Under the pieces are notes generated by a model. It saw only the letters and a program-made list of their open reading frames with translations. It did not search any database and was not told the origin of the DNA. From Bacteroidota bacterium (GTDB lineage Bacteria > Bacteroidota > Bacteroidia > Flavobacteriales > Flavobacteriaceae), in contig CANINJ010000024.1 in assembly GCA_947468985.1 (NCBI GenBank), positions 1-12,262 on the forward strand: 12,262 bases of DNA, in the 5' to 3' direction. Made by a program: the position numbers and the translations under genes. Positions 2,071 through 11,184 of this stretch are shown piece after piece (the first letter of the stretch is position 1; every line of letters starts with the position of its first letter).

Positions 2071-2856
2071 ATGAATATTGAAACTATAAATAGGAGTATT
2101 CAAACTCAAAAAACAGCTTTGTTGGAACATACGTTGTATCAAAAAGTACAAACTCTTGAAGATTTACAATGCTTTGTTGAAAATCATGTTTTTGCAGTTT
2201 GGGATTTTATGTCTTTATTGAAAGCATTGCAATCTAAACTAACTTGTACAACTACGCCTTGGTTTGCTACGAAAAATCCTGAAACACGCTATTTAATAAA
2301 CGAAATTGTTTTAGCAGAAGAATCTGATTTGACATTGGACGGAATAAGACAAAGTCATTTTGAAATGTATCTTGAAGCAATGAAATCTTTTGAAGCTTCA
2401 ACCACTGAAATTGAAAATTTTATTGAACATGTAGTTGCTACACAAAATATATTTGTTTCGATAAAACAAAGCGCAATTCACCCAAATATTAAAGCGTTTT
2501 TAGATTTTACTTTTAGAGTAATTGAAGAAGGAAAATCGCACGAAATTGCAGCTGCTTTCACTTTTGGTAGGGAAGATTTAATTCCAGCGATGTTTACTGA
2601 AATATTAAGAAATTTTCAAGCTAATTTTCCTGAAATCGATTTGAGAAAATTGATTTATTATTTTGAAAGACACATCGAATTAGATGCTGATGATCACGGG
2701 CCAAAAGCATTACAAATGGTTACAGAGCTTTGTGGAAATGATGAAGTGAAATGGAAAGAAGTCGAAATAATTTCTATTTTAGCATTAGAAAAACGCATTG
2801 GTCTTTGGGACGCAATTGAAGAAAATATTCAAGTATTTACTGAGGAAATTGTTTAA
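2071..2856 (+). CDS. DUF3050 family protein, probable haem-oxygenase-like fold
   Basis: 261 residues, cytoplasmic by appearance (no signal peptide or membrane segment), mostly alpha-helical. The sequence matches my memory of DUF3050 along its length: ENHVFAVWDFMSLLK (37-51), NEIVLAEESD (77-86), SHFEMYLEAM (95-104), FGRED (165-169) and the signature RHIELDADDHGP (200-211). The family is uncharacterised. Its helices and scattered acidic and histidine residues (E78, E83/E84, H96, E168, H201, D205, H209) resemble haem-oxygenase-like diiron oxidases, where such residues bind two irons; the assignment of individual ligands here is inference. The start at the only nearby ATG follows a short leader. 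Its last 20 bp overlap the 3' end of the convergent DUF2490 gene. It is not part of either flanking transcription unit. Confidence 0.8.
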   Translation: MNIETINRSIQTQKTALLEHTLYQKVQTLEDLQCFVENHVFAVWDFMSLLKALQSKLTCTTTPWFATKNPETRYLINEIVLAEESDLTLDGIRQSHFEMYLEAMKSFEASTTEIENFIEHVVATQNIFVSIKQSAIHPNIKAFLDFTFRVIEEGKSHEIAAAFTFGREDLIPAMFTEILRNFQANFPEIDLRKLIYYFERHIELDADDHGPKALQMVTELCGNDEVKWKEVEIISILALEKRIGLWDAIEENIQVFTEEIV

Positions 2857-3574
2857 ACCTTTTTTTATTTGTTTTGGATTTGTCCTTTTTGAGTTTTTTT
2901 ATTAATGCATCAATTGATAGATTGTATTTTGTAGAAAACACTATTCTATCCGTTTTCTGAGGATTTATTTTATCGTCATAAAAAACAGAAATTCCGATCG
3001 TATTTCCATATTTTAATTTGTATTCACCGCCAATTTTATAGCGCATTCTGTTAAAATAAAAAGTTTCATTTTTGTATTTAAGAAATAGTTCTGGAGCTAA
3101 ATATAAAGCTACTTTAGAATGTGGAATATTATATTCAATACTAAATTTTTCACGAAACATATTGCTAGGATTTTTATAATATTGCATATAATCTTGATCA
3201 AAACTGCCTGTAGAAAATTGATATTTAGAAGCAAATGAAAGCGTGAAATCTTTTAGTTTATGACTGTATTTTACCCCTAAAAAAATTCTGTGACTGTCTT
3301 CAAAAAACGAAGTTGTAAACCGATAACCTGTTTCTACTTCAATTTTTTTAGTTATTTCATATTGCGTAGAAACTTCAAATAAATTGGATTTAAAAGCATC
3401 TAAATCTTTATACAAATCATATCGGTAATTAAATGCAACTTTCAGTTTTTTATTTATTTTATAATCTATTGAAGGTGCAAACCGATATTGAATATCAGTC
3501 ATATTTTGTCCGAATAAAATTACAGAGCAAAGCAAGAATGCTAATGGAATTATACGTTTAAATATTTTAGTCAT
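2837..3574 (-). CDS. DUF2490 family outer-membrane beta-barrel protein
   Basis: I chose the ATG at 3574 (245 residues) because it is followed by a clear signal peptide, MTKIFKRIIPLAFLLCSVIL, with probable cleavage near LFGQ-N (residues 22-23). The longer open frame to 3610 adds twelve residues that would bury the signal. The mature part is a series of amphipathic strands rich in Tyr and Phe (YRFAPSIDY, VAFNYRYDLY, ETGYRFTTSF, FASKYQF), with the RMRYKIGGEYKL segment typical of DUF2490. The tail is very basic (KKLKKDKSKTNKKRF). DUF2490 proteins are predicted small outer-membrane barrels of unknown function. The start overlaps the DUF4956 stop by 8 bp, implying coupled translation; it is the last gene of the five-gene unit. 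Its 3' end overlaps the convergent DUF3050 gene by 20 bp, with no terminator hairpin visible. Confidence 0.8.
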   Translation of the reverse strand: MTKIFKRIIPLAFLLCSVILFGQNMTDIQYRFAPSIDYKINKKLKVAFNYRYDLYKDLDAFKSNLFEVSTQYEITKKIEVETGYRFTTSFFEDSHRIFLGVKYSHKLKDFTLSFASKYQFSTGSFDQDYMQYYKNPSNMFREKFSIEYNIPHSKVALYLAPELFLKYKNETFYFNRMRYKIGGEYKLKYGNTIGISVFYDDKINPQKTDRIVFSTKYNLSIDALIKKLKKDKSKTNKKRFKQFPQ

Positions 3575-4205
3575 TATCAATTTCTGTTGGTAATAAATTT
3601 TCACTTTCAATGGAGTAATAATATGCTTTTAATAATGAAGTGTCTTTTAAATAATCTATAGAAATAATATCTACTTTATGAATTGGCAGGCCAGTTCTTG
3701 TTTTTAAATCTTGAATTAAAATCTCTCGATCTTCAGGTCTAATTAAGTCTACCCTATCGTAAACAATTATTTTAGCATTTTCATTTTTAATAAAATCTAA
3801 CTTTTCTAAGAAAAATGTTATCGTTATAATAATTACATTGCAAATAACTATTAAGGTATATCCTTCTGTAATTGAAGCCAATGAATTCAACATTCCAAGT
3901 GCAACACATACAAAAAAGTAGCCCATGTCTTTAATAGAAATAGCAATTGTTCGGTATCTAATTATAGAAAACATAGCAAACAAACCAAAGGCAAATCCTA
4001 TTTTTATTTTTGCAGCACCTAATAAACAGCAAATCATAAAATTCACGATATTAAATAATACAAATGTGAATAAAAAGTCTTTATTTTTATGTCTTGGATA
4101 GTATATTAAACCAACAAGAATGAAAATTGAAATAATATCGATTAGGGCACGCAAAGTAAAATCGATGTTGCTAAATGTTGCTAAAACTGCTTCTTCTTTT
4201 TCCAT
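3567..4205 (-). CDS. DUF4956 family inner-membrane protein
   Basis: 212 residues. The N-terminal two thirds hold about four or five hydrophobic segments (roughly 18-36, 44-64, 67-81, 94-112, 116-134). The soluble C-terminal part (about 140-212) alternates beta-like and helical stretches and is probably cytoplasmic. The family signature GFAFGLFAMFSIIRYRT (70-86) is intact, with the two arginines after a membrane segment. DUF4956 has no established biochemical role; from memory it is very often encoded beside VTC-domain polyphosphate polymerases and CotH proteins, as here. It starts 5 bp after the VTC gene stop, and its own stop overlaps the start of the DUF2490 gene (shared ATGACTAA), so the three are surely cotranscribed. 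A part in sensing, regulating or moving polyphosphate is inference only. Confidence 0.85.
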   Translation of the reverse strand: MEKEEAVLATFSNIDFTLRALIDIISIFILVGLIYYPRHKNKDFLFTFVLFNIVNFMICCLLGAAKIKIGFAFGLFAMFSIIRYRTIAISIKDMGYFFVCVALGMLNSLASITEGYTLIVICNVIIITITFFLEKLDFIKNENAKIIVYDRVDLIRPEDREILIQDLKTRTGLPIHKVDIISIDYLKDTSLLKAYYYSIESENLLPTEIDND

Positions 4206-4210
4206 TTATT

Positions 4211-4957
4211 TTATAAATTAGTAACGCTTTTGATTAGGGGTAAAAAATTATTTTTTTTAATTGATGGCATTAGAGAAATGATGCCAAAAATATATTTACT
4301 TATACTTTGCTCCCGAAAATTATTTTCTTTTAAAAAATTTCCAAGGGGCGATGAATGTGATGTTTTTGACTGCTTAATTTCTATTATTGCGACTTTATCA
4401 AGTTGAAAAGCTTCATTTTTATTTATAAAATGAATATTTAAATCAATGGTCACTCTTTCTGTAAAAAGCGAATCTACTAGAGTTATTCTATTGAAATTAT
4501 TTCTTAAAACGAGTTCAATTTCAGGTACATTTTTTCTTGTAAACGATTGGATTATTTCTTTTTGTTCTTCGCTAATTGTTGCAATTAATCCGGGTAAAAC
4601 ACTTCGATATTTTGATGTTCGGTTTGTTTTTTCTTTCTTTTTTATTTCAAAAAAGCAAAGGTTAGATTCAACATATTTTCTACTTCTAACTTTAATTCTA
4701 TTCAAATAACCGTTGTGGTGGTCTTTGTAAAATTGTAAATCTGGTGTGTCGAAATAATTGTTTTCATATCTAAAAATACTACAATCATTAATTTTAAGAA
4801 TGCTATAATTTTGTATCAAACAAGGTAATATTTTTTCTAAATTTTCTTCATTGAGTACAAATTTACAATCAATTCTATTCAATAAAGAAACAGAATCTAA
4901 ATCAGTTAGCGTAACCGAGTTTAATTTTGAAATAGAAGAAATAAAGTTTTGAAACAT
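4211..4957 (-). CDS. VTC-domain polyphosphate polymerase
   Basis: 248 residues from the ATG at 4957; an in-frame GTG two codons earlier (4963) abuts the upstream stop and is a less likely start. The VTC domain fills the protein. Numbered from the ATG, the basic tunnel motifs are R28-I-D-C-K32, YFDT (68-71), R87-I-K89-V-R91-S-R93, FEIKKK (103-108), NRITLV (156-161), ER-VTIDL around R168 and D172, IIEIKQS (191-197) and SKY (220-222). These match the residues that, in yeast Vtc4, bind phosphate and metal while ATP is used to extend polyphosphate; the fold is a triphosphate-tunnel barrel. No SPX or membrane domain is attached, so the enzyme is probably cytoplasmic and could be brought to the membrane by the adjacent DUF4956 protein. 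Polymerase activity is inferred from family and motifs. Confidence 0.87.
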   Translation of the reverse strand: MFQNFISSISKLNSVTLTDLDSVSLLNRIDCKFVLNEENLEKILPCLIQNYSILKINDCSIFRYENNYFDTPDLQFYKDHHNGYLNRIKVRSRKYVESNLCFFEIKKKEKTNRTSKYRSVLPGLIATISEEQKEIIQSFTRKNVPEIELVLRNNFNRITLVDSLFTERVTIDLNIHFINKNEAFQLDKVAIIEIKQSKTSHSSPLGNFLKENNFREQSISKYIFGIISLMPSIKKNNFLPLIKSVTNL

Positions 4958-4963
4958 TTGCAC

Positions 4964-5350
4964 TTAAAAGGTAATAATTATATCTTCCATTGAAACATCG
5001 GCTTTTCGGGATGTTATTTCTACCGTTTTCACAACATAGTTTTGACTCCAAGTACAAGAATCACAATCTCCAAAAGCCCAAATATCATAGGTGCCCTCTT
5101 GAAGAAATTTAAATCGGAAAGAGCCATCATACGATGTTCTTATGTCATCAAATGAAGATGCATCTCCGTGTTTGCTAATATAAACACGTGCTTCGCCTAG
5201 ATAACCTTCACTTACTAAATACCCGCTTGAATTATAATTTTTAGCGTATATTTTCCCTCGAATTGAAGCCAATCCACCGTATCCCTCATCTTTGGAACAA
5301 GACGTCAGAAGCATAGAAACCAATATCAATAGTAACAGTTTTATTTTCAT
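4964..5350 (-). CDS. Small surface-exposed lipoprotein with beta-sandwich domain
   Basis: 128 residues. The N-terminus is a lipoprotein signal peptide with lipobox LLTSC (14-18); C18 would be lipidated. The next residues, S-K-D-E (19-22), fit the acidic lipoprotein export signal, K-(D/E)2, described for Capnocytophaga and related Bacteroidota, so the protein is predicted on the outer face of the outer membrane. The remaining ~105 residues look like a single beta-sandwich of the carboxypeptidase regulatory-like or transthyretin-like type: RGKIYAKN, EARVYIS, TSYDGSFRFKFLQEGTYDIWAFGD. A CDSC motif (96-99) could form a disulfide. It sits 7 bp after the CotH gene and 6 bp before the VTC ATG. I do not recognise a named family. 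A substrate or anchor for the secreted CotH kinase is one hypothesis. Confidence 0.75.
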   Translation of the reverse strand: MKIKLLLLILVSMLLTSCSKDEGYGGLASIRGKIYAKNYNSSGYLVSEGYLGEARVYISKHGDASSFDDIRTSYDGSFRFKFLQEGTYDIWAFGDCDSCTWSQNYVVKTVEITSRKADVSMEDIIITF

Positions 5351-5357
5351 TATAGAT

Positions 5358-7625
5358 TTATTTAGTAAGAATTATTATTTTTTTAGACAGTTGGTTATAT
5401 GACAAAATATAAGTTCCAGAAGTTAGAGATGATACATTAATTGCATTCTCATTTGCAGGTATTTTTTCTAAGACCAATTGCCCTAATTGATTATAAATTT
5501 TAATATTTTCGTTCGGTATCAAATCTGTAATTACTACATTAATTTGATTACTAGCAGGATTTGGATAAAGTGTTATTGAATTTTTTAATGCTTCAAATGT
5601 AATGGTTGATAAATTTTCATTATTGGCATTAAAAGTTGGCAATTGAATTACAAAACTCCCAGTTCCATTAGGATTCCTAGCAAATCCCATGTCAGATGTT
5701 TGAATTCCAAAATTTATAGAATCTACAATAATTCCGTTGGGATAGGATAATACACAACTTTCGCCACCAGCAGAAAATTTAAAATCTGCGTGAATACCAG
5801 TTTGCGTTAAATCTTGGTCTGCCCAAACGATAAGATAACTATTTGGCGCCATCGTGACGCCTGATGGGAACGCCCATTTCAATAAATTAGAAGTAGTATC
5901 TGTTGCATATAAATTATCTAAACTGATTGTATTTAGACTATTATTATACAATTCAATCCAATCACTATAATCTCCATTTGGATCGGTAATTGTATTTGTG
6001 TTTTGAGCCATTAATTCATTAATTACCAACGTCCCAGGGGCAATTGTAGGATACGTCCCATTTATGGTATAAAATTCATGTTCCGCTCGAACTGGCGAGA
6101 ATGCTCCAATGTTATTATTTTCAGCATAAATATAATATTGGGTTGATACTGTTTCAATTGGCAGAGTAATTCCATAGACATTATTTCCTGAAGCCCCGTC
6201 ATTATGTGCTCCATCATCGTACATTAACACTTTTGTAAATGGTAAAAAAGTGGACGAACGGTAACCTAAAAATACTGCACCTGAATTGGTATTTGTAACA
6301 TTTGCAGTAATTGAAATAGTAGTTCCAACTGAAGGAGAAGTGGATGATGGTGTGATGTTTGTAATGACAGGTTTTGTATTTGTGAAATCAGATTGTGCAA
6401 GTAAATATGTGTTTCTGCTACTCATTAGTCCTGTTAGTCCTGAGGCGATATTCATACCAAGATTAACATCCGTAGTTCCTAAATTGCTTGTAAACTGTGC
6501 TGTTGTGTAAAATTTATTAGTGTCCGCCGCAACTGCTGTCCCTATTAGTGATTGATAGGTTTGTGCGGTTGTTAAATAACTAGGCGTTGTTATATTCTCC
6601 GAAAGCATTGTTGCATAATGCGCTAAGTACATTTTTTTATATCTAGGCACCGCCAATAATTTTTGAACTAATGGCCATGCAGTATCCGCCGAGTGGTAGG
6701 TGTGCGAAAATGTTTTTTTAGTAGCAGTTGTTAATTGACTTCCAGTGCCAGGGTCTCCAAAAGTTCCAAAGCTCATATTTAAATCCCAAACAATTGGGTT
6801 GAAGCGACCATTATTATCTTTGTATAAATAATAATTTTGTTTGAATTTACCTATATAACTATCTAAATTCACAAATAAGTTGTCATAAACTAACATCCAA
6901 AGAGCCCTGTCAACATCTAAAATGGTTTCAATATTTGCAATATTATTAGACAATGTATTGGTAAGATTAATCAAATCGTCCCAGCCAGTGAGTGATTTCA
7001 TGCCGTAAGCAGATTCATAACTTGTACTTAATGCTCCTAAATAGGATAAATTTGGAAGATTGGTTGTTTGTGGCCCGGCACCTGCTGGTGGACTACAGTC
7101 AAAGAAAGCATTGTCATTTGATCCAAAATGATTGCTTACAAACTTCTTAGAAATAGATTCTATATTAGAGTACAATCCTATTAAAGCTCCATTCACATAT
7201 ACATTTGCATAATTTGACAATGGTGCATGCATGTATTTTCGTAAAACACTATAAGAAACTGTTTCTCTAACAAAAGTTGGATCAAAAATAACATTACTTA
7301 GTTTAATATCAGTATAGCCTTGGTAATTTTGATCTACAACATATGTGTCTAATTCAATGTGAAACGGATTTTTTACCTGACTAGGGTTATAGGAGCTATT
7401 TCCTTTATATTTTACGCCAACATTATTGTACATAACGCCATTGATAGTGACAGATTGAGCTGAAATATAAGAGTCAGTTTGTTCTGCGGTGTCTAAAAGA
7501 GCATCCCAGTTGGATTGAGAAAATACAATTCTAATGTCTTGAATATTGTTTTCGTTGTAAAAAGTTTGTGAATAGGTTTCAAATGAAATTATCATTAATA
7601 ATGATATTATGGAAAGTTTCTTCAT
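5358..7625 (-). CDS. Secreted CotH-family protein kinase with lamin-tail domain and T9SS sorting tail
   Basis: 755 residues. A signal peptide (1-20, ending TYSQ) is followed by the CotH kinase domain (about 25-415). Recognisable CotH motifs are VGVKYKGNSSY (69-79), VYVNGALIGLYSNIESISKKF (142-162), NLDSYIGKF (253-261) and the metal-site stretch PIVWDLNMSFG (277-287); K72 or K74, E156, D255 and D281 are candidate catalytic residues. About 419-520 is an Ig-like beta-sandwich with an acidic loop DDGAHNDG (470-477). About 530-640 is a lamin-tail domain (VINELMA, DWIELYN). Residues about 684-755 form a T9SS type A sorting domain (LYPNP to the end). CotH of Bacillus phosphorylates spore-coat proteins; Bacteroidota members are secreted and mostly unstudied. 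Export by T9SS to the surface or medium is a confident inference. It is the first gene of the five-gene unit. Confidence 0.9.
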   Translation of the reverse strand: MKKLSIISLLMIISFETYSQTFYNENNIQDIRIVFSQSNWDALLDTAEQTDSYISAQSVTINGVMYNNVGVKYKGNSSYNPSQVKNPFHIELDTYVVDQNYQGYTDIKLSNVIFDPTFVRETVSYSVLRKYMHAPLSNYANVYVNGALIGLYSNIESISKKFVSNHFGSNDNAFFDCSPPAGAGPQTTNLPNLSYLGALSTSYESAYGMKSLTGWDDLINLTNTLSNNIANIETILDVDRALWMLVYDNLFVNLDSYIGKFKQNYYLYKDNNGRFNPIVWDLNMSFGTFGDPGTGSQLTTATKKTFSHTYHSADTAWPLVQKLLAVPRYKKMYLAHYATMLSENITTPSYLTTAQTYQSLIGTAVAADTNKFYTTAQFTSNLGTTDVNLGMNIASGLTGLMSSRNTYLLAQSDFTNTKPVITNITPSSTSPSVGTTISITANVTNTNSGAVFLGYRSSTFLPFTKVLMYDDGAHNDGASGNNVYGITLPIETVSTQYYIYAENNNIGAFSPVRAEHEFYTINGTYPTIAPGTLVINELMAQNTNTITDPNGDYSDWIELYNNSLNTISLDNLYATDTTSNLLKWAFPSGVTMAPNSYLIVWADQDLTQTGIHADFKFSAGGESCVLSYPNGIIVDSINFGIQTSDMGFARNPNGTGSFVIQLPTFNANNENLSTITFEALKNSITLYPNPASNQINVVITDLIPNENIKIYNQLGQLVLEKIPANENAINVSSLTSGTYILSYNQLSKKIIILTK

Positions 7626-7727
7626 AACAGATATGATTTTTGATTTAGGTTTATAGTTTTTAGACGATAGTAAATCAAATTTCTTGTGTAAAAATAATAA
7701 AAAAATAACAATAATTTAACAATTCAG

Positions 7728-7735
7728 CAAAATTA
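7728..7735 (-). promoter_or_regulatory. Possible -7 element for the CotH five-gene unit
   Basis: The minus-strand TAATTTTG fits TAnnTTTG and is the only such match upstream of the CotH start. No TTG is found 17-23 bp further upstream, so the element is incomplete and the call is weak; an activator-dependent promoter would look like this. Confidence 0.3.
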
Positions 7736-7933
7736 GACAACATAAATAATTTTATATAAATGACTATCAGATGTTTGTGAAAAATTATTGTATAAATATT
7801 ACTAATATCCAGAATGTTTTTTAATTAATTTAATTCATAATTTGTTTTTAATTTCTATCTCAATAATCAATACATTGAAAAACAAAAACAACATTCTTGG
7901 TTTTAAGTTATCGTTTTTTCATCCTTTTTTCTC

Positions 7934-7941
7934 TATATTTG
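7934..7941 (+). promoter_or_regulatory. Promoter -7 element for the small membrane protein gene
   Basis: TATATTTG matches TAnnTTTG and lies 25 bp before the ATG at 7967, leaving a leader of under 20 nt. The expected TTG at -33 is replaced by TCG at 7911-7913 (20 bp spacing), so only the -7 half is convincing. Confidence 0.45.
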
Positions 7942-7966
7942 TTGAAATAAAAATAATTTATAAACT

Positions 7967-8395: not shown

Positions 8396-8403
8396 AAATT
8401 AAA

Positions 8404-8434
8404 ATTAAAGCCCTAGATTAGGGCTTTAATTCTT
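8404..8434 (+). terminator. Rho-independent terminator after the small membrane protein gene
   Basis: A perfect 12-bp stem, ATTAAAGCCCTA (8404-8415) with TAGGGCTTTAAT (8419-8430), has a 3-nt loop and is followed by TCTTTATATT. The A and T flanks of the stem make it workable in both directions, but only the plus-strand gene needs it. Confidence 0.8.
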
Positions 8435-8960: not shown

Positions 8961-9440
8961 TTAGTTTTTTCTCCAATTTTTAAAAGGGTTTTTACTCAAA
9001 TACGCATTATAATACCGTTGGTCGTTGGTAACTTCAGCTCCTAACCAATTTGGTTTTTCAAAAGATTCTGTTTCCGATCGCAATTCTATTTCGGCAACAA
9101 CTAAACCCTCATTTTCTCCAAAGAATTCATCCACTTCAAAAACATGGTTTCCAACTTTAATTTCGTAACGAGTTTTCATAATTACGCCACTTTCACACAA
9201 TTCCAAAAGTGATTTTGCATCCGATAATGCAATTTCTTTTTCCCATTCAAAGCGTGACATTCCCGAAGCATTTCCCTTCCCTTTAACCGTAATAAATCCC
9301 GAATTCCCTTTAATCCGAACACGAACAGTTCGCTCTGGCGTTGAGTTTAAATAGCCTTGAGCAATTTCATTTTTTGCAAAAGCCACCGTTTTAAAAACAT
9401 CCGAAGTAACTAAAAATTTGCGCTCGATTTCAATCATCAT
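8961..9440 (-). CDS. CYTH domain protein, probable inorganic triphosphatase
   Basis: 159 residues, cytoplasmic, consisting of one CYTH domain of usual length. It opens with the defining ExExK motif (E4-I-E6-R-K8, followed by FL) and continues with TVRVRIKG (38-45), ITVKGKG (50-56), FEWEKEI (64-70), KTRYEI (89-94), FEVDEFFGENEGLVVAEIEL (101-120) and the C-terminal WLGAEVTNDQRYYN (132-145). These charged residues line the triphosphate tunnel in this superfamily. Small CYTH proteins of this form that have been studied cleave inorganic triphosphate with Mg or Mn; adenylate cyclase or thiamine triphosphatase activity is possible but not indicated. Two ATG codons open the frame (9440 and 9437); either may be used. 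It overlaps no promoter of RlpA and ends one base from it, tail to tail. The VTC enzyme 4 kb away belongs to the same fold superfamily. Confidence 0.88.
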   Translation of the reverse strand: MMIEIERKFLVTSDVFKTVAFAKNEIAQGYLNSTPERTVRVRIKGNSGFITVKGKGNASGMSRFEWEKEIALSDAKSLLELCESGVIMKTRYEIKVGNHVFEVDEFFGENEGLVVAEIELRSETESFEKPNWLGAEVTNDQRYYNAYLSKNPFKNWRKN

Positions 9441-9475
9441 AAAAAGAAATTATTTTTGACCAAGTTAATAAAAAA

Positions 9476-9483
9476 CAAACGTA
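9476..9483 (-). promoter_or_regulatory. Promoter -7 element for the CYTH gene
   Basis: On the minus strand this is TACGTTTG, an exact TAnnTTTG match, 36 bp before the start codon, giving a leader of about 30 nt. No TTG with 17-23 bp spacing is seen, so the call is moderate. Confidence 0.4.
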
Positions 9484-9553
9484 GTCCAATTTAAAATGAT
9501 TTCTAATTTCTTTTTCTTTTTTGGAAATTTTAAATCACAATTCTTAAATCTGT

Positions 9554-9676
9554 TCCCTGCATTAGGGATTATAGCGAAAAGCCCACAGACAAGTGGAGCG
9601 AAGCGGAACTTGGCGAGGACTTGTAGCGGGAAGCCCGACCGCCACTGTAACGCCAGTGGAAGTGGGGGTAATGCCC
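9554..9676 (+). repeat. Structured GC-richer intergenic repeat (element B)
   Basis: Within a 337-bp gene-free stretch (9441-9777), about 120 bp stands out as GC-rich and hairpin-rich. Visible inverted repeats are TCCCT/AGGGA (9554-9558, 9564-9568), CCAC/GTGG (9583-9586, 9593-9596), CGGG/CCCG (9627-9630, 9634-9637), CCACTG/CAGTGG (9642-9647, 9654-9659) and GGG/CCC (9666-9668, 9674-9676). Phrases such as GGGATTATAGCGAAAAGCCC and GTAGCGGGAAGCCCGACC resemble intergenic elements I remember from Flavobacterium genomes. The GATTATAGCG phrase echoes GATTGCAACG in element A, and both elements lie downstream of a gene in the same relative orientation. A 68-codon plus-strand ORF through it has no protein character. 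Function unknown. Confidence 0.5.
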
Positions 9677-9707
9677 AAATAATGAAGCTATTTATTCTTT
9701 GATTTTC

Positions 9708-9794
9708 TTAGGGAAGTTTTATTATTGAGGAGCTGAAATTTCCGCCTCCGATGATTTGAATTTTAATCTTTTGAACGCTATAATAATTTGCCAT
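9708..9794 (-). CDS. Possible 28-residue ORF overlapping the mgtE 3' end (doubtful)
   Basis: In the +1 frame relative to mgtE, an ATG at 9794 opens 28 codons to a TAA at 9708-9710, overlapping the last 17 bp of mgtE. The predicted peptide has a hydrophobic Gly- and Ser-rich second half (IIGGGNFSSSIIKLP). The arrangement would suit translational coupling, but there is no homology I recognise, and the DNA (AGCTCC-like end) may instead be decayed repeat tail. Treat as a candidate only. Confidence 0.15.
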   Translation of the reverse strand: MANYYSVQKIKIQIIGGGNFSSSIIKLP

Positions 9795-11184
9795 TCAAGA
9801 ATAGCATCGCTATTGAAAAGTAAATAATTAATCCTGTTACATCTACTAAAGTTGCCACAAAAGGAGCCGATGATGTTGCGGGATCTAATTTAAGTTTTTT
9901 CAATAAAAAAGGAATCATAGAGCCCGAAAGTGTTCCCCATAAAACTATAAAAACTAGAGAAACGGCAACTGTCATTGCAATAAAAAGCCAATATACCCCA
10001 TAATCATGAATTCCTAAATTCTGCCATATTAGAATTCTAATAAATCCAACAATTCCAAGTATAGAGCCTAATAAAAATCCAGATGCGATTTCTTTTTTCA
10101 TTACATACCACCAATCTTTCAAATCTAATTCTTTTAACGCCATAGCACGAATAATCAACGTTGCGGCCTGCGAACCTGAGTTACCACCGCTGGAAATAAT
10201 TAATGGAATGAACATGGTAAGAACAATTGCTTTGTTGATTTCTCCTTCAAAAAAGCCCATTGCTGAAGCGGTAAATAATTCGCCAAGAAAGAGTACGACA
10301 AGCCAAGTGGCTCGTTTTTTCACCATTTCAAAAAGTCGTGTTTGCACATAAGGCAAATCAAGTGCCTCCAAACCCCCAAACTTTTGAATGTCTTCGGTAT
10401 CTCTTTTTTCTATTTCTTCTTTTATAACATCAATAATATCGTCAATGGTAATGCGTCCAACTAATCGCCCTAATTCATCTACAACAGGAATGGCTTCCAA
10501 GTCATATTTATCCATTATTCGGGCAACTTCTTCTTCTGGGGTTTCTACATCTACAAAGTGTAATTTGCTAATATAAAACTCTTTAATAGGTGTTTTTGTT
10601 GAAGCTGTTAGCAAATCTTTTAAAGACAAACGTCCTTTAAGTTTGTTTTCATCATCGACTACATAAATAGAATGTACTCTGGAAATGTTTTCGGCTTGAA
10701 TTCGCATTTCCTTTACACAAGTTAGAACATTCCAATTTTCATTGACTTTCACCAACTCTTTGTGCATAATTCCACCCGCAGTATCTTCATGATACCGAAG
10801 CAAATCGACAATGCTTTTTGCATGTTCAATATCCTGAAGCTCAGAGATTACTTCCGCTTTTCTATCTTTGGAAAGTTCCCCAATAATATCTGCAGCATCA
10901 TTAGTCTCTAATTCATCTAATTCCTCCGCAATTTCTTTGGAAGAAAGTCGACTTAATATTTTTTCCCGTAAATCATCATCAAGTTCAAGAAGAATTTCAG
11001 CGGTTTTTTCACTGTCTAAAACCTGAAAGATATAGGTTGCCTCATCAATTCCAACTTCATCAAGAATTTCAGCAAAATCAGCATGGTGCATGTCATTCAA
11101 TAAAATCTCCAGTTGCTGGTTATTTTTGGATTGAATGAGTTGTACTATTTGTTGAATTAAATCTTTGCTGATTTTAAACTGCAT
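9778..11184 (-). CDS. mgtE: Magnesium transporter MgtE
   Basis: 468 residues, full length. Domains in order: cytoplasmic MgtE N domain of helical repeats (about 1-130, rich in [20 protein letters not shown] acidic helices), two CBS domains (about 135-195 and 200-258, with [15 protein letters not shown] and [14 protein letters not shown]), a plug-like linker helix (about 260-290), and five membrane helices (about 292-465). The pore signatures [16 protein letters not shown] (325-340) and [19 protein letters not shown] (433-451) are intact, with D448 at the position of the Mg-selective aspartate. The protein is a Mg channel/transporter in the inner membrane, gated by Mg binding to the cytoplasmic domains, so its main control is at protein level. 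Its ATG overlaps the end of rsmA by 11 bp, implying coupled translation in a DUF4286-rsmA-mgtE unit. No Mg-sensing leader is possible at such an overlap. Confidence 0.96.

Follow-up and report, generated by a model that had tools for sequence, protein, structure and literature searches.

Do five adjacent genes on a 12,262-bp Bacteroidota contig form a single system, and does its product cross the cell envelope? The window, meaning the whole stretch of DNA analysed, is an entire contig (C24) of an assembly that is 66% complete. Its minus strand encodes, in order of transcription, a CotH-family kinase-like protein, a lipoprotein, a VTC-type polyphosphate polymerase, a DUF4956 membrane protein and a DUF2490 barrel. 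It is almost certain that the five genes form one functional unit, and their CotH-VTC-DUF4956 core is widespread outside Pel. That VTC-made polyphosphate moves outward via DUF4956 and DUF2490 and serves a surface CotH is a tentative reading, held with somewhat less than even confidence.

Recurrence of the five-gene unit

The CotH (7625-5358, 755 aa), lipoprotein (5350-4964, 128 aa), VTC (4957-4211, 248 aa), DUF4956 (4205-3567, 212 aa) and DUF2490 (3574-2837, 245 aa) genes are separated by gaps of 7, 6 and 5 bp and a final overlap of 8 bp, as read from the window. These positions and spacings confirm those of an earlier note on this DNA, and a Pfam scan bore out its labels for CotH with a type IX secretion system (T9SS) tail, VTC, DUF4956 and DUF2490. 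No NCBIfam family scored above cut-off for the lipoprotein, VTC, DUF4956 or DUF2490. The VTC and DUF4956 genes are the sole copies found in their own, incomplete assembly.

At family level DUF4956 was present in 28 of the 199 genomes searched, at genus level in 52 of 249 and at phylum (Bacteroidota) level in 81 of 345, with 79 of the 345 above the cut-off. Its scores split into a high group (≥100 bits), which includes the window's protein, and a lower-scoring group. VTC was found in 51 of the 345 Bacteroidota-level genomes and was accompanied by DUF4956 in all 51 (Fisher 4e-40), the two genome searches being taken as one draw on the basis of equal genome number and shared handles. Of the 61 VTC matches examined (those in fetched genomes, out of 80 listed), 60 share a strand with DUF4956 and are no more than 4 kb away from it; the remaining one belongs to a gene split over two contigs.

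Loci were sampled from genomes (80) and from public records picked for similarity to the window's DUF4956 branch (80). The open reading frame (ORF) caller left DUF4956 uncalled in three and four of these, respectively. Neighbour genes were labelled with home-built profiles and key ones verified with Pfam. CotH was labelled with a core-domain model, and 26 of the proteins were verified by Pfam. A full-length CotH model was rejected; in Flavobacterium loci it matched type IX tails and Lamin Tail Domains, in genomes without a Pfam CotH.

The window's branch was sampled in 118 loci that are non-redundant at 95% (124 before), many of which stop at contig edges. By home-built profiles, VTC is a same-strand neighbour in 97 (within two genes of DUF4956), DUF2490 in 76 (three genes), the lipoprotein in 33 (four genes) and CotH in 31 (five genes). 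VTC, DUF4956 and DUF2490 occur together in 67 loci, 29 of which also have the lipoprotein, and the complete set of five is found in 11. The lipoprotein never occurs without VTC. Among the 82 loci with 4.5 kb of upstream and 2 kb of downstream sequence, the counts are 68 for VTC, 55 for DUF2490, 20 for the lipoprotein and 28 for CotH. The fewest changes on a quick DUF4956 tree, with too-short loci excluded, are 9 for VTC, 16 for DUF2490, 15 for the lipoprotein and 21 for CotH; the partners have therefore been gained or lost repeatedly.

The earlier note had asked whether the lipoprotein and DUF2490 are constant partners, and had taken their absence from nearly all other CotH-VTC-DUF4956 loci as evidence to the contrary; no such absence was seen. 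Within the window's branch the five genes do behave as one unit with both as recurrent members: of 32 CotH-VTC-DUF4956 loci, near-duplicates included, 28 have DUF2490, 15 the lipoprotein and 14 both. The four lacking DUF2490 are L140, where the contig stops 36 bp past DUF4956, and three Chloroflexota (Anaerolineae) loci, L177, L178 and L207, with the gene order VTC-DUF4956-CotH. Chloroflexota are not known to have an outer membrane. Constancy of DUF2490 does not extend to more distant loci. By Pfam positions, with CotH counted within six kb, the 49 high-scoring DUF4956 loci have 36 VTC, 36 DUF2490 and at least 16 CotH genes, whereas the 41 lower-scoring loci have 24 VTC, one DUF2490 and at least eight CotH genes. 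The unit recurs in Flavobacteriales, Bacteroidales, Chitinophagales and Kapaibacterium records.

The core has been described elsewhere. CotH, a polyphosphate polymerase and DUF4956 are given as Pel accessory genes in Gram-positive pel clusters of streptococci, clostridia and bifidobacteria in PMC7112168. In PMC12345266, deletion of SIR_1592 (transmembrane/ACT, TM/ACT) or SIR_1594 (CotH) in Streptococcus intermedius reduced aggregation and altered Pel, which rose on loss of the TM/ACT protein and fell on loss of CotH. SIR_1592 is equated here with DUF4956 because the gene order matches between the two papers. PMC12345266 also reports that its authors did not find the three-gene arrangement outside Pel. 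The loci reported here contradict that statement. No pel genes were found among the Pfam-scanned genes of the window and no PelG match in its assembly, 66% of which is represented; PelG exceeded its cut-off in one of 79 genomes (37.5 bits vs 29).

The Bacteroidota form resembles the Gram-positive set (SIR_1594-1592) in its three adjacent core families, its secreted CotH and its membrane protein with TM and ACT parts. It differs in lacking pel, in having an outer-membrane barrel and a surface lipoprotein as further members, and in the type IX tail that its CotH carries. The earlier note saw here a candidate for an undescribed system. No description of the five-gene Bacteroidota form was found in the openly licensed literature searched; the core is published in PMC7112168 and PMC12345266. 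That the core is common in genomes lacking Pel, and has additional outer-membrane and surface components which differ with the type of cell envelope, points to a general envelope function.

Predicted products and compartments

The CotH protein matches PF08757 (2.8e-44; 152.4 bits against a curated cut-off of 23.8) and structure 5jd9 (2.1e-7). It has a signal-peptide-like start, a CotH domain (71-376), a Lamin Tail Domain (529-638; 1.2e-14) and a type IX secretion tail (686-752). D255 (NLD) and D281 (WDLN) align with the NFD and WD aspartates of 5jd9, and we take them to be the active-site Asp pair. Its marks of type IX cargo are Por_Secre_tail (3.1e-12, 47.1 bits), TIGR04183 (43.4 bits) and, by eye, a signal peptide.

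All Pfam families were below cut-off for the lipoprotein. Cys18 (lipobox, by eye), G23, G25, G26 and others are invariant across 32 members of its family. The mature start is C-S-K-D-E, with K at +3 and D/E at +4/+5. In PMC5080379, K-(D/E)2 at +3 to +5 is the lipoprotein surface-export signal of Capnocytophaga canimorsus, and the F. johnsoniae consensus is SDDFE; the window's lipoprotein fits only the C. canimorsus form. Matches at E 0.001 or better were found in 32 of the 249 genus genomes, nine of them strong (159-175 bits) and the other 23 at 35.5 bits or less. All nine strong genes lie immediately before VTC, and from its sequence context the lipoprotein looks dedicated to VTC loci. CotH precedes it in five of these nine Flavobacterium loci (the window, G353, G430, G240 and G381).

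Among the 29 CotH-VTC-DUF4956 loci outside Chloroflexota, CotH has a type IX tail in 19 and a lipobox without a tail in 10, with L142, L157 and L196 classed from scanned sisters, the cut L149 from L154, L087 on a tail slightly below cut-off, and L053 and L202 on lipoboxes seen by eye. Of the 19 loci with a tailed CotH, 15 also have the lipoprotein; none of the 10 with a lipobox CotH does (Fisher 5e-5, or 4.6e-4 after removing four near-duplicates; the test takes no account of ancestry). From this co-occurrence we infer that the lipoprotein acts as anchor or helper for a CotH that is not itself lipidated.

VTC matches PF09359 (5.4e-25; 88.8 bits, cut-off 23). An alternative GTG start lies at 4963, six bases upstream. 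Across 28 relatives of 20-61% identity, R87, K89, R91, R93, E104, K106, K116, R157, D172, E193, K195 and K221 are invariant, and R28, K32, R118 and R168 nearly so. These charged residues presumably line the catalytic tunnel. In a profile search of PDB only Vtc2/3/4 chains matched below E 1e-6. Judged by family and conserved residues, the enzyme probably makes polyphosphate. All nine genomes that carry the lipoprotein have PPK1, as do 15 of the 17 genomes tested overall, and VTC would therefore add a second, probably specialised, polyphosphate source. The polymerase domain of the eukaryotic VTC complex (Vtc4/Vtc3/Vtc1) is matched by profile, and PMC9911596 describes that complex as coupling polyphosphate synthesis with membrane translocation. 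The window's VTC differs in having no SPX or DUF202 domain; its membrane partner would be DUF4956.

DUF4956 (PF16316, 3.7e-51) was modelled with five long helices, taken as transmembrane, and a C-terminal beta-alpha-beta-beta domain (predicted local distance difference test, pLDDT, 76.7). R83 and R85 of its RYRT motif are invariant across 31 diverse members. A seven-sequence MgtC profile compared with a diverse DUF4956 set gave an hhalign probability of 96.3% (E 1.6e-9) over 188 columns that cover the transmembrane region and C-terminal domain. Pfam MgtC was matched at E 1 or better by 15 of the 31 members (best 1.2e-6); the window's protein alone had no Pfam MgtC match, and a single E. coli YhiD sequence did not match DUF4956. 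Foldseek returned no hits at E 0.001 or better, and the VIA list was dominated by the small C-terminal domain; neither yielded a convincing relative by fold. On profile similarity, DUF4956 is related to MgtC/SapB, from which it differs in its own conserved motif, GLFAxFSIIRFRT, and its fixed VTC partnership. PMC12345266 agrees in reading SIR_1592 as MgtC- and ACT-like.

The mechanical ORF list starts the DUF2490 gene at TTG 3610; the ATG at 3574 opens a signal-peptide-like stretch. The protein matches PF10677 (6.3e-18); scanned as a single sequence against Pfam with a threshold of E 1, it gave DUF2490 plus weak MtrB/Porin_4/OMP_b-brl matches only. Its model has 11 annotated strands (pLDDT 92.4), and the first five structural neighbours are KdgM, NanC and VhGalP entries. 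The fold is thus predicted to resemble KdgM/NanC porins, tied with NalP. KdgM/NanC acidic-oligosaccharide porins have 12 strands, and no sequence match between them and DUF2490 was seen. The window's barrel has a Lys-rich C-terminal tail; such a tail was found in 17 of 81 unit barrels and none of 20 others and was set aside as too patchy a basis. The openly licensed literature searched establishes no function for DUF2490 or DUF4956.

The compartments predicted by the earlier note are thus supported by the type IX tail, the lipoprotein export signal, the five-helix model and the barrel model.

Proposed polyphosphate export and its alternatives

In the proposed scheme, VTC would synthesise polyphosphate from ATP in the cytoplasm. 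The MgtC-like DUF4956 would be its inner-membrane partner and pass or control the polymer, a role suggested by the strict VTC-DUF4956 pairing and by the adaptor and outer-membrane genes that lie next to it. DUF2490, as a KdgM/NanC-like barrel, may be the outer-membrane exit, and the surface-exported lipoprotein may hold or serve the type IX-secreted CotH. CotH could then bind the polymer as a ligand, take phosphoryl groups from it, or act on surface molecules alongside it; this is the weakest step.

The outer parts of distant loci bear on this scheme. In one set of 20 lower-scoring DUF4956 loci, 12 have an HlyD-type protein, which in ten of them immediately precedes VTC. L123 and L126 have DUF4956-HlyD-TolC blocks; the L126 matches to HlyD-type (28.2 bits) and TolC-type (18.5 bits) families are both below cut-offs, and its biotin-lipoyl match is above. 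By eye, no ABC or RND pump was seen beside these two blocks. An OEP protein above cut-off follows DUF4956 in L127. A cytoplasmic polymerase, a fixed inner-membrane partner, an exchangeable outer part and a secreted kinase-like protein together fit export better than a purely cytoplasmic role. That the product crosses the envelope is close to an even call, and that CotH uses polyphosphate is doubtful. Less likely again is the full version, a dedicated diderm polyphosphate exporter (VTC plus an MgtC-type translocator and a KdgM-like barrel) feeding a surface-held CotH as extracellular phosphoryl donor. If true, it would explain secreted bacterial kinases where ATP is scarce and the route of polyphosphate to cell surfaces. 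DUF2490 and the lipoprotein are now named partners for the study of polyphosphate export and extracellular phosphorylation.

Several observations weigh against export. The strongest are loci without VTC and the S. intermedius polymerase mutant: in PMC12345266, no aggregation change is reported for the SIR_1593 deletion, unlike the TM/ACT and CotH mutants. VTC is absent nearby from 13 of the 49 high-scoring DUF4956 loci, six of which have DUF2490, so DUF4956 and DUF2490 can pair without it. PMC10434189 lists a DUF4956-DUF2490 pair, BT3498-BT3499, in B. thetaiotaomicron. CotH is near DUF4956 in at least 16 of those 49. CotH is missing from four of the nine Flavobacterium lipoprotein loci and, within a distance of five genes, from 21 of the 33 non-redundant lipoprotein loci (by subtraction, counting those at contig ends); both counts make an anchor role less likely. 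For DUF2490, the KdgM/NanC entries tie with the NalP autotransporter translocator barrel (15.9). A basic lumen, tried as a mark of polyphosphate passage, is not special to the unit and was rejected as a discriminator: the net charge is +5.6 in 81 unit barrels and slightly higher, +7.0, in 20 other DUF2490 barrels (p 0.009; hydrophobicity rather than coordinates was used to assign lumen faces, and the 20 are top-scoring Pfam hits, probably of one subfamily). Regulation, more than channel activity, is the familiar role of MgtC proteins. Polyphosphate, its transport and phosphorylation are all inferred here.

A regulatory alternative is possible if on the unlikely side. An MgtC-like DUF4956 would use its TM and ACT-like parts to sense or adjust ATP, phosphate or cytoplasmic polyphosphate, and would tune a polymer of the envelope or proteins at the surface. 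Polyphosphate would stay inside, and CotH would phosphorylate surface proteins from another donor. Both the MgtC relation and the S. intermedius phenotypes, as given in PMC12345266, favour it. The barrel, HlyD-type and TolC-type genes beside DUF4956 in Bacteroidota and the missing DUF2490 of the three Chloroflexota loci are left unexplained, and with PelG above its cut-off in one of 79 genomes the target here is not usually Pel. An improbable alternative is that CotH, or elsewhere a secreted PPDK/glucan-water-dikinase (GWD)-like protein, phosphorylates a surface polysaccharide while the other products provide phosphate or phosphoryl groups. Secreted PPDK_N proteins do lie beside DUF4956 or before VTC, two of three scanned copies having a weak GWD phosphohistidine match, and the Gram-positive set sits in Pel clusters. 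Glycosyltransferases, for which no systematic scan was made, did not stand out among the scanned neighbours, and the known CotH substrate is protein (PMC7821199).

Slightly less probable still, the VTC-like enzyme may make something other than polyphosphate, for instance a small nucleotide or cyclic signal. Several activities occur within the tunnel-enzyme superfamily, and no assay of this VTC branch was found in the literature searched; the charged columns conserved in 28 relatives and the exclusive Vtc2/3/4 matches argue for polyphosphate. Chance adjacency of unrelated genes is scarcely credible. The lipoprotein, DUF2490 and CotH do change state often on the quick tree, but the spacing is tight, the set recurs across the four groups of records named above, and no lipoprotein lacks VTC in 118 loci.

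Variant loci and neighbouring genes

In L109 a phosphate-selective porin family protein (Porin_O_P, 9185-10171) replaces DUF2490 between DUF4956 and CotH. A secreted PPDK_N protein adjoins DUF4956 on the same strand in L059 and L061 and on the opposite one in L098 and L102-L108. L134 has it directly before VTC, where other loci have CotH. A second accessory family directly before VTC has 132-236 aa, a signal-peptide-like start and YD-like repeats seen by eye (L136, L141-L143, L145, L147, L155, L167, L168, L170, L173, L190, L195, L202, L204 and L205). The L168 copy had no Pfam match. A free-standing lipoprotein-like protein upstream of VTC in L167 (7220-7726) carries a Lamin Tail Domain, as does the window's CotH.

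In the window, a 341-bp A+T-rich gap between divergent genes (7626..7966) is, by position alone, the likely promoter region of the unit. A DUF3050 gene (2071-2856) converges on the unit and overlaps the DUF2490 gene by 20 bp. A CYTH-domain gene (8961-9440; PF01928, 3.7e-18) lies on the same strand 1.3 kb upstream. CYTH belongs to the same tunnel-enzyme superfamily as VTC; the gene was set aside as a unit member because two opposite-strand genes intervene. A strong symmetrical terminator-like hairpin, readable on both strands, lies between two plus-strand genes at 8403-8431.

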